Source: Chryseobacterium lacus (GTDB lineage Bacteria; Bacteroidota; Bacteroidia; Flavobacteriales; Weeksellaceae). Taken from it: 64,000 nt of DNA. A program made the translations under genes and the position numbers. The notes beneath the pieces were generated by a model. That model ran no database searches. It saw only the letters and a list, made by a program, of their open reading frames with translations, and was not told the DNA's origin. The stretch's first letter is position 1. The number at the start of each line of letters is the position of its first letter. The DNA lies in NCBI RefSeq assembly GCF_003336205.1, contig NZ_QPIE01000003.1:62001-126000 (forward strand), written 5' to 3'. Of the stretch, positions 10,047 through 42,632 are shown piece after piece.

Positions 10047-10625
10047 ATGTTCAAATTAAAACTCCCGACTGATCCGCGCTGGGCGAATATCGCAGAATCC
10101 AATCTTCCTGAGATTCTGACGGATCACGCTTGGTGTGAGCAGAAAGCAGCCACCAATTCTATCACGCTCATTACTATGTTGCCGGAATATCCTGACATCG
10201 TTTCCGAACTTCTGGCCATTGCTCAGGAAGAACTGGATCATTTTCAGCAGGTTCATGAGATTATTAAAAAACGCGGTTATCAGCTTGGCAGAGCGAGGAA
10301 GGATGATTACGTAAATGATCTGGCCAAATTTATCATTCAGGGAAGCCGTGAAGATTTAATTATCGATAAAATGCTTTTTGCAGCCATGATAGAAGCCCGA
10401 AGTTGCGAGCGCTTTCGGGTGCTCACAGAAAATATAAAAGACGAAGAACTAAAAGTTTTTTATCGGGAATTAATGATCTCCGAGGCCAACCATTATACTA
10501 CATTCATTGGTTTCGCTCGGCAGTTGGGCGATCCTGAAAAAGTGAACGAACGATGGGAAGAATGGCTTGAATATGAAGCAAAAATCATCGCAGGATATGG
10601 AACCAGAGAAACAATACACGGATAA
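10047..10625 (+). CDS. miaE: tRNA-(ms2io6A)-hydroxylase, MiaE-like
   Basis: 192-residue ferritin-like diiron protein. MiaE hydroxylates the isopentenyl group of ms2i6A at tRNA position 37 using O2. The helical carboxylate/His iron ligands are visible as AQEELDHFQQVHEII, MIEARSCERFRVL and SEANHYTTFIGFA, which is the typical E/ExxH pattern repeated in a four-helix bundle. NSITLITMLPEYPDI near residue 40 matches the family entrance region. The 3' end overlaps the DUF502 gene by 29 bp. Confidence 0.9.
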   Translation: MFKLKLPTDPRWANIAESNLPEILTDHAWCEQKAATNSITLITMLPEYPDIVSELLAIAQEELDHFQQVHEIIKKRGYQLGRARKDDYVNDLAKFIIQGSREDLIIDKMLFAAMIEARSCERFRVLTENIKDEELKVFYRELMISEANHYTTFIGFARQLGDPEKVNERWEEWLEYEAKIIAGYGTRETIHG

Positions 10626-11259
10626 ACAAAGCTGGCTGCCGGCCAATGTGAAAAGAAAAAGAGATTTTCCGGGATTCTTCCTCAAGTCTTTTTTTCAGGG
10701 ATTGATGATTATCGGCCCGTTTGGGCTCACGGTTTTCGTCATCTGGTATATTATTTCTTCTATTGATAATCTTTTTCCTTCCGTTTCACATCAGTATCCG
10801 GGATTGGTTTTTATTTCTGTTATTACTCTCACCGCCATTCTGGGATTTTTGGGAAATAAATTCATTTTAGGAAGACTTTTGCTGGACAGAATCGATTTTC
10901 TTTTGGAAAAAACACCAGGCATCAAGCATATTTATACGCCTACAAAAGATGTGATGTCGTCCTTCGTTGGCGATAAAAAGAAATTCAACCATCCCGTTTG
11001 GGTAAAGACCAACGAACATCCCGAAATATGGAGAATTGGTTTCCTGACGCAACAAAACATGTTGGAGGTGAATAAAAATGAACACGTTGCGGTTTACCTT
11101 CCGCACTCTTATGCCATTTCCGGATGGGTCATTGTCACCAAAAAAGATAACATAGAACCTATTATTGGAATGAGTGCTGCAACAGCCATGAAATTTGCTG
11201 TAAGCGGTGGTGTAGCGGGATTTCACCTTGAAAAAAATATTTCCAAAACTGCGGAATAA
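10597..11259 (+). CDS. DUF502 family membrane protein
   Basis: 220 residues. Two membrane segments lie near the N-terminus (GLMIIGPFGLTVFVIWYIISS and an LVFISVITLTAILGFLGN region), followed by a soluble domain. The family features PGIKHIYTPTKDVMSSF and the FHLEKN end are present. DUF502 proteins are widespread in bacteria and of unknown biochemical role; a link to membrane transport or stress has been proposed for plant relatives (COV1-like). The ATG at 10597, preceded by CAGGAT, fits better than an upstream ATG at 10567. It overlaps miaE. Confidence 0.82.
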   Translation: MEPEKQYTDKQSWLPANVKRKRDFPGFFLKSFFQGLMIIGPFGLTVFVIWYIISSIDNLFPSVSHQYPGLVFISVITLTAILGFLGNKFILGRLLLDRIDFLLEKTPGIKHIYTPTKDVMSSFVGDKKKFNHPVWVKTNEHPEIWRIGFLTQQNMLEVNKNEHVAVYLPHSYAISGWVIVTKKDNIEPIIGMSAATAMKFAVSGGVAGFHLEKNISKTAE

Positions 11260-38751: not shown

Positions 38752-41412
38752 TTAAAACTTCACATCAAAACCTACATAAATGTGAGCCGGCATGATGGGC
38801 GCATACACCATTCCACCATCGAAATAATTTCCGAAAGGATTGGCTGCATCAATGATCGGGTTGTTCTGTGTGTAAGAAGTCAGGTTTTCACCACCGATAT
38901 ACACTCTCATTTTATCATTGAAATTTTTAGCAATCTGGGCATTTAATGTAGAAAAAGAACCTGAATATTTTGGCAACTGAAATTCCGAAGGATTGGTTCC
39001 CATTTCTGGAAGCAGTTGTTTTCCAACAACATTCAATGTAGTATCGAATGTCCAAAATCCACCCTTTTCATTTTTCGATGTGGTATAAGCAAGATTCAGA
39101 AAACCCCGATGTTTTGCCATAAAAGGAACTTCGCGGCGGCCGTTGGCATAATCTGCCTGAACATCATAATATTTATACGCTAACCGAACTTCAAAATTTC
39201 TGATGGGCGTGAAATCCCATTGCGTCTGAAAACTGTTGGCAAAAGAAGTTCCGTTCAAATTATAAAAGACAATTTTCTGCGCAGATTGGTCCAGATCCAA
39301 CAATACCTGCTGCTGAAAATCAGTCCGGAAAAAATCGGCAACCACAGTAGATTTTCTGCCTAAAAACTGGAATTCCTGCTGAAGGCTTGCACCATAATTC
39401 CATGCAATTTCCGGCTTCAAACCATAGATTTCACCATCATTGGGAATGATTTCTATCGTTCTGTTGGATGCAAAATACCCCTGACTTTCTGCAAAAACAT
39501 TGGCCGTTCTAAATCCTTTTCCAGCGGACAAACGGAGAATGGTTTTGGGCGTAAAATCATATTTGAAATTTAACCTTGGTGTAAACTGAGTTCCGGCCAG
39601 ATTATGAAAATCTGTTCGGGCTCCTGCTACCAGTGTATAATTCGTTCCTGTGAGCGTATATTCAAAGAACAATCCGGGAACGGTTTCGGTGCGTTTGAAA
39701 TTTTGAGAAAGATAATCTTCATCATAGTTATCGTAGAGAAAACTTGCTCCGGTTTTGTACTTATGATTCGTGTTTCCGAAGATACTTTCAAAAATAAGAT
39801 TGGAATAAAAAGTCTTTTGTTTTCCAAAATAGTCTCTCAATCCGAAGAAACTGTCCTGCTGATGGTACGTAAACTGATTCATCCAGCCAATACTCTGATA
39901 TGGTTTTCCCTCAAAAATATGGCCGGTTTTGTTCCAAACCTGAAATCTGGAAATATCAATTCCGACACCATAATTCGGCTGAGAAATTTGAGGTTTTTGC
40001 CAATCAAAATCAACTTGCCCCGCTTTTCTTTTATCCTGAAGAAAATTGATTCCAAAATGGGTAGCCCATCCTGAGTGATCAAGATCGGTATAATTCAAGA
40101 GATAAGTTGCATTCAGCTGTGTTCCGGTTGGCTGATCCAAAAACCCGTCATTATTATGATCCGATTTTACCAAAGTTCCGTTGCCGTGAAGCAAAATACT
40201 TTGACTCCAGTGCTGTGTTAAATTAGAAGTATGGGTAATATTCGCTTCAGTTCTCGCATTAGAATCTGCAAAAATATTCAAAGAGGTTTCAGGTTCTTTA
40301 CTGTGTTTCAGAAGTTCAGTATTAATTTGGCCTGTGATGCTTTCATATCCGTTGGTGACGGTGCTTCCGCCTTTGGTAAGCTGAATTCCTCCAATCCACC
40401 TTCCGGGAATAAAATTGAGTCCGTAAGGTGACGCCAAACCGCGAATTTCGGGCAGCAATTCCTTAGTAAGAGAAGTATATTTCTGATCCAAACCCAGCAT
40501 TTTGAGCTGTTTCGTTCCCGTTACGGCATTGCTATAGGAAACATCAACTGTGGCATTGGTTTCAAAACTTTCAGATAAATTACAACAGGCGGCTTTCAAA
40601 AGTTCTTTTCCGCTGATATTAAAAGTCAGTCCAACATCTTTTCTGCTCAGCGCTGTAGCGTCCCTTTCCTTAATAACTGTTACTCCTTCAATGCTGTTGT
40701 CATAATGTTCCGGATGATCAGAAAAATCTTTTCGGGCAACAGATTCCGAAGGTTGTTCATCGATATGTACCAGCGGATTTTTTTCGCCAAAAGCCAGCGT
40801 CCGGCTGTACACACAACAGGCCGGCAAATCTTTGTACGCTTTTTCTGTTGACTGAAACATTTCATTATCATGCCCAACATCCGCAATTTTCTTTAAAATG
40901 GCTTCAGCAGATGTCTTAGAAGGATCCAGTTGCAATGTAATCTTCTGAGTAGGAGCATCCCAAACTGCGACATCTGCACCCGCATCTAAAGCTGCTTTTT
41001 CAATCCTGTTTTTGCAGGACACACAGTTTCCTTTTACGAAGTATTGAAGTTCGGAATCTTTCTTTTCAGTTTTCAGGAAAGAGGGTTGCCGTTCATAATG
41101 GCAGCAATCGGGTAAGTTATTGTACGTTTCCTGAGTTGTGCTGTATCGTTCGTTATCATGTCCGGCGTCGGCAATTTTCTTCAATACAGTATCGAGGTTG
41201 GTTTCGCTTTCGTTAAATTCAACATTAAGAATTTTAGTGGAAGCACTCCAGTTTGCCGTTTTTGCTCCGGCTTTTTTGGCGGTAGTTTCTATGCGTTCTT
41301 TACACATTCCGCATTCGCCTTTTACCAGAACTGCGTGAGTAACATTTTGTGCAAAGATAAAATTGGCAGCGAATAACACTATGATTAGTAAGCTCTTATA
41401 TAATAATTTCAT
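38752..41412 (-). CDS. TonB-dependent receptor with two N-terminal HMA-like domains
   Basis: 886-residue outer-membrane receptor. Signal peptide 1-21. Two HMA-like units follow at about 25-104 and 122-200. Each has a CxxC pair (Cys34/37 and Cys130/133), a GHDNE stretch and a terminal LPxCC (103-104 and 199-200). A linker with a third CC pair (276-277, LLKAACCNLSESFETN) introduces the plug. The 22-strand barrel then runs to a terminal Phe (YVGFDVKF). The domain set suggests copper or another soft metal as cargo, perhaps as a complex. It is the last gene of the locus at 38.7-44.9 kb. Confidence 0.93.
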   Translation of the reverse strand: MKLLYKSLLIIVLFAANFIFAQNVTHAVLVKGECGMCKERIETTAKKAGAKTANWSASTKILNVEFNESETNLDTVLKKIADAGHDNERYSTTQETYNNLPDCCHYERQPSFLKTEKKDSELQYFVKGNCVSCKNRIEKAALDAGADVAVWDAPTQKITLQLDPSKTSAEAILKKIADVGHDNEMFQSTEKAYKDLPACCVYSRTLAFGEKNPLVHIDEQPSESVARKDFSDHPEHYDNSIEGVTVIKERDATALSRKDVGLTFNISGKELLKAACCNLSESFETNATVDVSYSNAVTGTKQLKMLGLDQKYTSLTKELLPEIRGLASPYGLNFIPGRWIGGIQLTKGGSTVTNGYESITGQINTELLKHSKEPETSLNIFADSNARTEANITHTSNLTQHWSQSILLHGNGTLVKSDHNNDGFLDQPTGTQLNATYLLNYTDLDHSGWATHFGINFLQDKRKAGQVDFDWQKPQISQPNYGVGIDISRFQVWNKTGHIFEGKPYQSIGWMNQFTYHQQDSFFGLRDYFGKQKTFYSNLIFESIFGNTNHKYKTGASFLYDNYDEDYLSQNFKRTETVPGLFFEYTLTGTNYTLVAGARTDFHNLAGTQFTPRLNFKYDFTPKTILRLSAGKGFRTANVFAESQGYFASNRTIEIIPNDGEIYGLKPEIAWNYGASLQQEFQFLGRKSTVVADFFRTDFQQQVLLDLDQSAQKIVFYNLNGTSFANSFQTQWDFTPIRNFEVRLAYKYYDVQADYANGRREVPFMAKHRGFLNLAYTTSKNEKGGFWTFDTTLNVVGKQLLPEMGTNPSEFQLPKYSGSFSTLNAQIAKNFNDKMRVYIGGENLTSYTQNNPIIDAANPFGNYFDGGMVYAPIMPAHIYVGFDVKF

Positions 41413-41504: not shown

Positions 41505-41876
41505 TTAAACTATTTTAGGAGGATGCCAGATTTTGGAATTAACATCCAAAATTTCGGGAGTAATATAAGCGAACGCCTTTTTTTCGACAGGTAAAACCCT
41601 GAGAATATCCGTTGAGAATCCCGAAATAGGAACGGAAAAAAAAGCAATATGAAGATGACAGGCAGTACAGGTAAGGCATCCTTCACAGGAATGTTCTTTA
41701 CTGCCTGAATCGTGACATGGTTTTTCCTGAGTTTCCTGTGAGGACTGACAACAGTCTTTCGAATCTGAATCTGCAATACAGCATATCGATTCTGCTTGGG
41801 CAAAAAGCATCTGTTTGGGTGTAATAAATAAACCCAAAGCAAAAATCAACAGGAAAATACTCAGTTTCTTTGCCAT
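41505..41876 (-). CDS. Cys/His-rich small exported protein (HYC_CC_PP-like)
   Basis: 123 residues. A signal peptide (LSIFLLIFALGLF) ends near AQA at 27. The mature protein holds nine cysteines, including CC at 32-33 and 42-43 and a CEGCLTCTAC cluster at 64-73, with several His beside them. It ends in WHPPKIV. The layout resembles the small HYC_CC_PP proteins that accompany TonB receptors in Bacteroidota; this assignment is from memory. It is a likely periplasmic metal-binding partner of the receptor encoded next. A TAACTTTG box sits seven bases before the start. Confidence 0.75.
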   Translation of the reverse strand: MAKKLSIFLLIFALGLFITPKQMLFAQAESICCIADSDSKDCCQSSQETQEKPCHDSGSKEHSCEGCLTCTACHLHIAFFSVPISGFSTDILRVLPVEKKAFAYITPEILDVNSKIWHPPKIV

Positions 41877-41897: not shown

Positions 41898-42557
41898 TTA
41901 TTTTAAAGGTGCGCCTACAGCAATATCACATCGGTGGCCGGGTTCTCCATGTGGAGGATTCATTCCTGGTGCGGTGCTGGCAGTAGCTGCCTTTTCTGCA
42001 ACAGGAGCTGGATTGGAAACCGGAGTAATGGTTTGTGTTTGTTGCGGTGCTGTTGCAGGTTTAGCTGGCGCACTGTTCAAAGGAGCTCCTACGGCAATAT
42101 CGCAACGGTGGCCGGGTTCACCATGTGGTGGATTCATTCCGGGCGCAGTTTTTTTCGCTGTGGGTTGTGGAGCGGGTTGTGGAGCCGGAGCCGGTGTGGG
42201 AACTGCAACAGGAGCTGGAGCATTAACGCTTCTGGATTGTGCTAAGGGATTGGTATTGAAACCGCCTCCAGTTGCTGCAACAGGTGCCTGAGTAACAGAA
42301 GGAGCTGAATTGAGCGGAGCACCAACCGGAATATCACAACGGTGTCCCGGTTGTCCGTGTTCAGGATTTAAACCGGAAGCTGAATTGGCCGCAACGGTAT
42401 TTGCTTCGCCCCGTGTATTGACCATAGCAGAATCTACAGTTAATGAATCATTGGATGTAACAGCGTTTTCATTGGCTGTTGTATTGGTTGTTTGATCTTT
42501 AGAACAAGCAGTAAGAAGTAATCCTGATGCAAGAAAAATATTTAAATAGTTTTTCAT
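41898..42557 (-). CDS. Lipoprotein with three PxHGxPGHRCDIxVGAPL repeats
   Basis: 219 residues, function unknown. A lipoprotein signal ends in LLTAC (Cys18). The rest is low-complexity linker, rich in Ala, Pro, Thr and Gln, carrying three copies of one motif at residues 62-83, 140-162 and 198-219; the last copy forms the C-terminus. Each copy has two His and one Cys in fixed spacing (HGxPGHRC), fitting metal binding. Copies 2 and 3 are nearly identical, copy 1 differs at a few positions. The gene lies between a two-component system and metal-receptor genes. I recall similar motifs in other Bacteroidota proteins, without assigned function. Confidence 0.8.
   Translation of the reverse strand: MKNYLNIFLASGLLLTACSKDQTTNTTANENAVTSNDSLTVDSAMVNTRGEANTVAANSASGLNPEHGQPGHRCDIPVGAPLNSAPSVTQAPVAATGGGFNTNPLAQSRSVNAPAPVAVPTPAPAPQPAPQPTAKKTAPGMNPPHGEPGHRCDIAVGAPLNSAPAKPATAPQQTQTITPVSNPAPVAEKAATASTAPGMNPPHGEPGHRCDIAVGAPLK
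41901..42374 (-). repeat. Threefold coding repeat of the GHRCDI motif
   Basis: Three 66-69-bp units at 41901-41966, 42072-42140 and 42309-42374. Units one and two (by coordinate) are nearly identical in protein but differ at many third positions, so the duplication is not recent and the protein sequence is under selection. Confidence 0.85.
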
Positions 42558-42577
42558 TATATTTTAAATTTAAAAAG

Positions 42578-42620
42578 TAAAAGCATCAAATTTAGCAAAA
42601 TTTTACAAATGATGCTTTTA
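42578..42620. promoter_or_regulatory. 11-bp inverted repeat touching the promoter of the triple-motif gene
   Basis: TAAAAGCATCA (42578-42588) and TGATGCTTTTA (42610-42620) are perfect inverted copies 21 bp apart. On the minus strand the right arm comes first, and the left arm overlaps the -7 box TAAATTTG (42587-42594) by two bases and is followed by CTTTTT. It may be an operator, a terminator of the response-regulator gene with a long loop, or both. Confidence 0.6.
42587..42594 (-). promoter_or_regulatory. -7 promoter box of triple-motif lipoprotein gene
   Basis: TAAATTTG on the minus strand, 29 bases before the ATG. The predicted transcription start falls inside the left arm of the inverted repeat. 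Confidence 0.5.
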
Positions 42621-42632
42621 AAACAAAGGAAG

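Follow-up and report, generated by a model that had tools for sequence, protein, structure and literature searches.

What would a small lipoprotein gain from three short units, each built around two histidines and one cysteine? The question is raised by a gene of Chryseobacterium lacus located in the window, that is, the whole stretch of 64,000 nucleotides that was analysed. A preliminary description of this DNA had taken the unit for a possible new metal-binding repeat. The gene, its units and its neighbours are listed in Table 1.

Table 1. Features of the lipoprotein locus, in window positions.
Feature	Position	Strand	Basis
TonB-dependent receptor, probable partner, two HMA (CxxC heavy-metal) domains at the N-terminus	38752..41412	-	PF00593 E 1.5e-24, PF00403 E 3.4e-08
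Small exported Cys-rich protein, next gene downstream, 24-nt gap	41505..41876	-	CruR/CutF-like leader architecture
Gene of the 219-aa lipoprotein with three NPxHGxxxHxCxxxVGxPL units joined by Ala/Pro/Thr/Gln-rich linkers	41898..42557	-	ORF and homologs
Unit copy 3, 21 residues, GMNPPHGEPGHRCDIAVGAPL, one residue short of the C-terminus	41904..41966	-	Sequence
Unit copy 2, 21 residues, GMNPPHGEPGHRCDIAVGAPL	42078..42140	-	Sequence
Unit copy 1, 21 residues, GLNPEHGQPGHRCDIPVGAPL	42312..42374	-	Sequence
Signal peptide and lipobox LLTA/C, residues 1-18 = MKNYLNIFLASGLLLTAC, lipidated Cys18 followed by S-K-D-Q	42504..42557	-	Translation
Gap 3' of the response-regulator gene, terminator-like hairpin	42558..42632	-	MFE -13 kcal/mol, z -3.49

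The lipoprotein gene and its three units

The open reading frame starts with an ATG at 42557 and its stop codon ends at 41898 on the minus strand, and the position given earlier for the gene proved to be exact. The lipid-carrying Cys18 is invariant in two homolog alignments. The preliminary description was centred on a three-fold PxHGxPGHRCDIxVGAPL motif in a lipoprotein; the three copies were recovered at exact coordinates, and the lipobox was seen. The window units follow NPxHGxPGHRCDIxVGAPL, and their 21-residue form spans G[LM]NP to VGAPL. Eighteen of 27 aligned columns are invariant among copies 1-3. Copies 2 and 3 had been described as silently divergent while agreeing in protein. The codon comparison bears this out, with 13 identical codons, 8 synonymous differences and no non-synonymous difference over 21 codons. 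Copies 1 and 2 are separated by 11 synonymous and 4 non-synonymous codon differences. The claim of selection on the motif is supported by the silent-only differences between copies 2 and 3 and by the retention of the unit in hundreds of genomes. The last copy was likewise correctly placed at the protein end, one residue before the stop. The DNA pattern for HGxPGH has three matches in the 2.38 Mb genome, all of them inside the lipoprotein gene, and the pattern read backwards gave no match in the whole genome. Therefore, a chance occurrence is excluded.

The hairpin in the gap before the gene is AT-rich (AAAAGCAUCA...UGAUGCUUUU, minus strand) and is followed by a T run. It was not flagged by a consensus terminator scan. 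Since it lies between the response-regulator gene and the lipoprotein gene, the latter is probably the start of its own transcript, as judged from the DNA sequence.

Spread and novelty of the unit family

The profile search of the motif in Bacteroidota that had been proposed at the outset was carried out, and the distribution and neighbours of the family were mapped. Homologs of the lipoprotein were found in 64 of 148 genomes of Weeksellaceae. Of 395 genomes across the phylum, 32 were clear carriers by the unit profile, confined to four families; five more matches in the phylum, with E values of 0.003-0.01, were treated as chance and dropped from this count. Two more distant families gave matches in 10 of 119 and 23 of 121 genomes. 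A scan of named genomes confirmed at least 443 stretches with the unit. The genera and groups among the matches listed are Flavobacterium, Chryseobacterium, Kaistella, Solitalea, Flavihumibacter, Chitinophagaceae and Sphingobacteriales, and the 80 loci kept among the matches listed all belong to Bacteroidota. Plasmids and viral contigs contained no match to the unit. On this search, a mobile-element origin of the lipoprotein was rejected.

The repeat had been called new, and the searches agree with that. The lipoprotein matched no Pfam family over the cut-off and none in NCBIfam. The best NCBIfam model, TIGR04101, remained sub-threshold and covered linker as well as unit; membership was rejected because the match is below the cut-off of the model and lies over low-complexity sequence. 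A known fold with an unrelated function was looked for in profiles, in PDB sequences and with Foldseek, and none was found. The best PDB hits by phmmer and hmmsearch were spurious (E 0.98-4.8), and Foldseek returned no match for the whole protein or for the single unit. A literature search for the motif letters retrieved no paper. On these sequence comparisons, the unit is a real, widespread, uncatalogued and strongly selected repeat family. The protein is encoded in hundreds of Flavobacterium, Chryseobacterium and sphingobacterial genomes, and Pfam and NCBIfam hold no model of it.

Conservation and predicted structure

Seventy-eight family proteins from Weeksellaceae, Flavobacterium, sphingobacteria and Chitinophagaceae were read. 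All 78 carry two to four units, including three proteins that appeared single by regular expression, in each of which the profile finds two. The proteins kept among the matches listed have three or four units, a number to be read with the ranking by likeness to a three-copy query. The residues N, P, H, G, H, C, V and G are invariant in 28 of 28 diverse unit copies, and one Leu is invariant as well in 35 last copies. Other positions drift: Arg is replaced by D, S, N or K, Asp by A, S, E or G, and the residue before the second His can be G, N, Y, F, W, H or S. Thus, the candidate metal ligands and putative turn residues are conserved and the adjacent charges are not. Met occurs in the units at one variable position only. 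The last unit usually ends 16-19 residues past its first His, which is the C-terminus of the protein.

Three-copy proteins typically hold six His and four Cys, the lipobox Cys included, and two-copy proteins four His and three Cys. Nearly no His or Cys is found outside the units of the family proteins, a scarcity that is partly expected for low-complexity linkers. Structural disulfides were considered and rejected: the count of non-lipid Cys in three-copy proteins is odd, so that not all of them can be paired.

A variant last unit is frequent in Chryseobacterium loci (among them L066, L067, L203 and L210): Trp directly precedes the second His (HGEPWH), and Arg and Asp are gone. This version resembles both the Trp-assisted copper site of CusF and the HGGGW repeat of prion protein. 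By analogy, the HGEPWH unit may be a specialised copy.

The structure was predicted with AlphaFold2. In the whole protein, the units reached pLDDT values of 81-91 and much of the linkers fell below 50. A 34-residue piece containing the copy 3 unit and a leader scored 89-92 over the unit, and its model shows a single bridge, from the residue before NP to the P of GAPL. Of the five single-unit models, two scored low (pLDDT 58-61), and AlphaFold2 may over-score short conserved motifs. Each unit is thus predicted to form a closed mini-loop, alone or in the whole protein, and the loops would be joined by disordered linkers.

These data bear on the idea that the units are a multivalent docking motif, namely peptide ligands of an envelope protein encoded elsewhere, with His and Cys as contacts. 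Short, repeated, C-terminal units on flexible linkers and the absence of a conserved neighbour outside Weeksellaceae are traits of linear motifs with a distant partner. However, Arg and Asp, the best docking side chains, vary, whereas H, H, C, N, P, G, V and G do not, and the isolated unit is predicted to fold alone. We consider docking improbable.

Genomic neighbourhood

In Weeksellaceae, a TonB receptor with HMA domains is encoded within 6 kb of the lipoprotein gene in 55 of the 64 carriers. Lipoprotein, leader and receptor are on one strand in all 20 loci that were read, in the order lipoprotein-leader-receptor or leader-receptor-lipoprotein. The gap from lipoprotein to leader is mostly 6-33 nt; that from receptor to lipoprotein is mostly 18-36 nt and larger in a few loci. 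The second order is found in two separate, well-supported clades of the receptor tree. Therefore, the association was formed or re-formed at least twice, and such a repeated association is a stronger sign of joint function than a single inherited arrangement. From gene order, the three genes look like a copper-uptake operon in Weeksellaceae. This setting, which is the strongest pointer to function, is found beyond the coordinates named in the preliminary description. The receptor itself is present in 137 of the 148 genomes, with or without the lipoprotein, which indicates that it does not require the lipoprotein.

The Cys-rich leader was compared with CruR and CutF. These are exported DUF2946 proteins in which a CxxC motif senses copper and a terminal proline motif stalls the ribosome, and their genes precede those of TonB transporters and further copper genes (PMC9426467, PMC9973294). 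The leader fits this anatomy by its signal peptide (judged by eye), its CxxC, its C-terminal proline motif and its position upstream of a TonB or copper gene. In 20 homologs, all before a receptor or an HMA gene, CxxCxxC and the C-terminal IW(Q/H)PPK are invariant. Against DUF2946 (PF11162), one of the 20 homologs matched at E 0.004 with 18.3 bits, below the cut-off of 23.7, and the window protein gave no match. By analogy, the gene at 41505-41876 is probably a Bacteroidota counterpart of the CruR/CutF copper-sensing leaders. The CruR-BfrG/CutF operons share with this locus a Cys-rich exported leader that ends in a proline motif and adjoins a TonB-dependent transporter (PMC9426467, PMC9973294). 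They differ in that the leader here is only a sub-threshold relative of DUF2946 and the receptor carries HMA domains. Moreover, their extra gene encodes a PepSY_TM protein, and here it encodes the repeat lipoprotein.

In some Weeksellaceae loci (L078, at 10441-10830, and L083), a separate 130-aa HMA gene lies between the Cys-rich gene and a shorter receptor of 783-799 aa, as if one HMA domain of the receptor had been split off.

The setting in other families is different. In Flavobacterium, sphingobacterial and Chitinophagaceae-type families, the gene is an isolated one surrounded by housekeeping genes, and a clustering of the neighbours in 80 loci gave no partner gene common to different families. 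Two exceptions have a copper flavour. One family gene (L095) follows an HMA protein in a Chitinophagaceae-type genome, and another (L156) adjoins DUF420-SCO1-COX4-COX3.

A metal other than copper was also considered. HMA domains point to a soft metal, not to copper specifically; they carry Zn, Cd or Hg as well, and the N-terminus of the receptor also gave a weak match to MerP models. If the metal were Zn, Ni or Fe, the copper-like neighbours would be a side story of Weeksellaceae. The N2S ligand set of two His and one Cys fits Zn as well as Cu, and most family genes are far from any copper gene. The leader architecture and the SCO1/COX neighbour, however, suggest copper, and another metal seems to us quite improbable.

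A precursor similar to RiPPs was also considered, in which the repeated cores would be modified at Cys, for instance by an MNIO enzyme. Cys-containing cores are indeed repeated in a lipoprotein here. MNIO-modified peptides, including a ChrH lipopeptide, are known from Chryseobacterium, and the copper-chelating bufferins offer a RiPP parallel (PMC12636315, PMC10214503). However, the MNIO profile (PF05114) was over the cut-off in only 3 of the 34 carrier genomes tested and not in the genome of the window, and the surroundings of the gene show no conserved modifying enzyme. An MNIO-modified RiPP of the bufferin or ChrA type was rejected, since 31 of the 34 carriers lack PF05114 over the cut-off, and we hold a RiPP-like precursor to be very improbable.

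Proposed function

The invariance of H, H and C against the drift of Arg and Asp, the odd number of non-lipid Cys in three-copy proteins and the predicted operon with HMA receptor and leader support metal binding indirectly. Judged from the sequence, the unit plausibly binds a metal. Our main proposal is that the protein is a copper-capturing lipoprotein whose multivalent H-H-C sites serve the HMA-TonB receptor in Weeksellaceae, and we regard it as evenly poised between right and wrong. According to this proposal, the protein would be a lipoprotein of the outer membrane, and its metal sites, two to four in number, would be tethered and independent of one another. In every NPxHGxxxHxCxxxVGxPL unit, a closed loop of about 19 residues would bring both His and the Cys together; the resulting N2S ligand set would most probably be one for Cu(I)/Cu(II). 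In Weeksellaceae, the lipoprotein would be a copper-capturing accessory of the adjacent TonB receptor. Its flexible arms would take copper near the mouth of the receptor, or act as a copper buffer at the periplasmic face, and the copper would then be handed to the receptor with its pair of HMA (CxxC) domains. The Cys-rich leader, encoded between or before lipoprotein and receptor, would sense copper and tune the expression of the receptor. What the data show directly is the unit, its conservation, its presence in at least two copies, the predicted mini-fold and the recurrent adjacency on one strand; metal binding, copper as the metal, surface exposure, the hand-over to the receptor and the same job for the orphan copies in other families are what we infer.

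Capture at the mouth of the receptor presumes a location at the cell surface. The export signal of surface lipoproteins in Capnocytophaga is C-x-K-(D/E)2 (PMC5080379). A Lys followed by D or E near the lipid Cys was found in 101 of 140 homologs, with CKKDE in Chryseobacterium; CSKDQ of the window protein is a partial fit only. Surface exposure in Weeksellaceae is plausible on this signal.

Several sphingobacterial members (L094, L166, L169-L171, L174-L176 and L178) have an N-terminal membrane segment and no lipobox, and the L095 member has a plain signal peptide instead of a lipid anchor. The lipid anchor thus appears to be replaceable by a membrane segment. Such members (L094, L166, L169-L171, L095) need not be located at the surface, and they would suit a periplasmic copper or silver sponge, whose tethered sites absorb excess metal and protect the envelope without feeding an uptake receptor. 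The same anatomy, multivalent His/Cys sites on disordered linkers, would serve that purpose, and SilE is a precedent of a disordered periplasmic metal sponge (PMC5008109). On the other hand, the invariance of N, P, G and V, together with the confidently predicted closed loop, suggests defined sites, and the predicted Weeksellaceae operon with its TonB receptor and leader resembles uptake, not efflux. A sponge is therefore unlikely in our estimation.

A wider form of the copper-capture proposal may also be put forward. The unit would be a new minimal metal-binding mini-domain, about 19 residues long and carrying an N2S site. Two to four such units would form the tethered arms of a lipoprotein from which copper passes to the HMA-TonB receptor, and the lipoprotein would be a third kind of accessory in TonB-dependent uptake besides the SusD-like and hemophore-like ones. 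This form is tentative, and we hold it with distinctly less than even confidence. If copper capture is true, a dedicated outer-membrane step would be identified for copper uptake in Bacteroidota, a route of which little is known, and peptide design could profit from a 19-residue metal site that is genetically encoded. A testable function is also suggested for the HMA-TonB receptor and for the CruR/CutF-like leader gene.

Comparison with known systems

The motifs of SilE consist of His and Met with simple spacing. SilE/PcoE and the lipoprotein are alike in being flexible exported proteins along which short metal-ligand motifs recur (PMC5008109). The latter differs by its 19-residue His-His-Cys unit with invariant Pro, Gly, Asn and Val, by the predicted mini-fold and by the usual lipid anchor. 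No sequence relation to SilE/PcoE was found, and their repeated His/Met pairs are absent from the units. The octarepeats of prion protein, PHGGGWGQ, bind copper; they are Pro-His-Gly units placed in tandem along a flexible chain. Flexible chains with Pro-His-Gly units are found here as well, and the third copies in Chryseobacterium even read HGEPWH. The octarepeats are contiguous, whereas copies of the lipoprotein unit are 35-90 residues apart; the unit also exceeds the octarepeat in length and contains a further His and a Cys. By analogy, the mode of action is likely akin to that of SilE and the prion octarepeats, and the lipoprotein is a member of neither.

The nickel hook of NiSOD, HCDLPCG, resembles H-x-C-D-I-P-V-G of the unit locally (peptide in PMC5722923). 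The second Cys is Val in the unit, and the N-terminal His and the SOD domain are lacking. This candidate was rejected, and the likeness is probably due to chance, given the missing second Cys, the internal or C-terminal location of the unit and the lack of a Pfam match.

The SusD-like surface lipoproteins of Bacteroidota, which feed TonB receptors, are likewise encoded beside a TonB receptor. In Chryseobacterium homologs of the repeat lipoprotein, a putative K-(D/E)2-like export signal follows the lipid Cys (PMC5080379). Unlike them, the repeat lipoprotein has no globular ligand-binding domain, and capture would use tethered metal sites.
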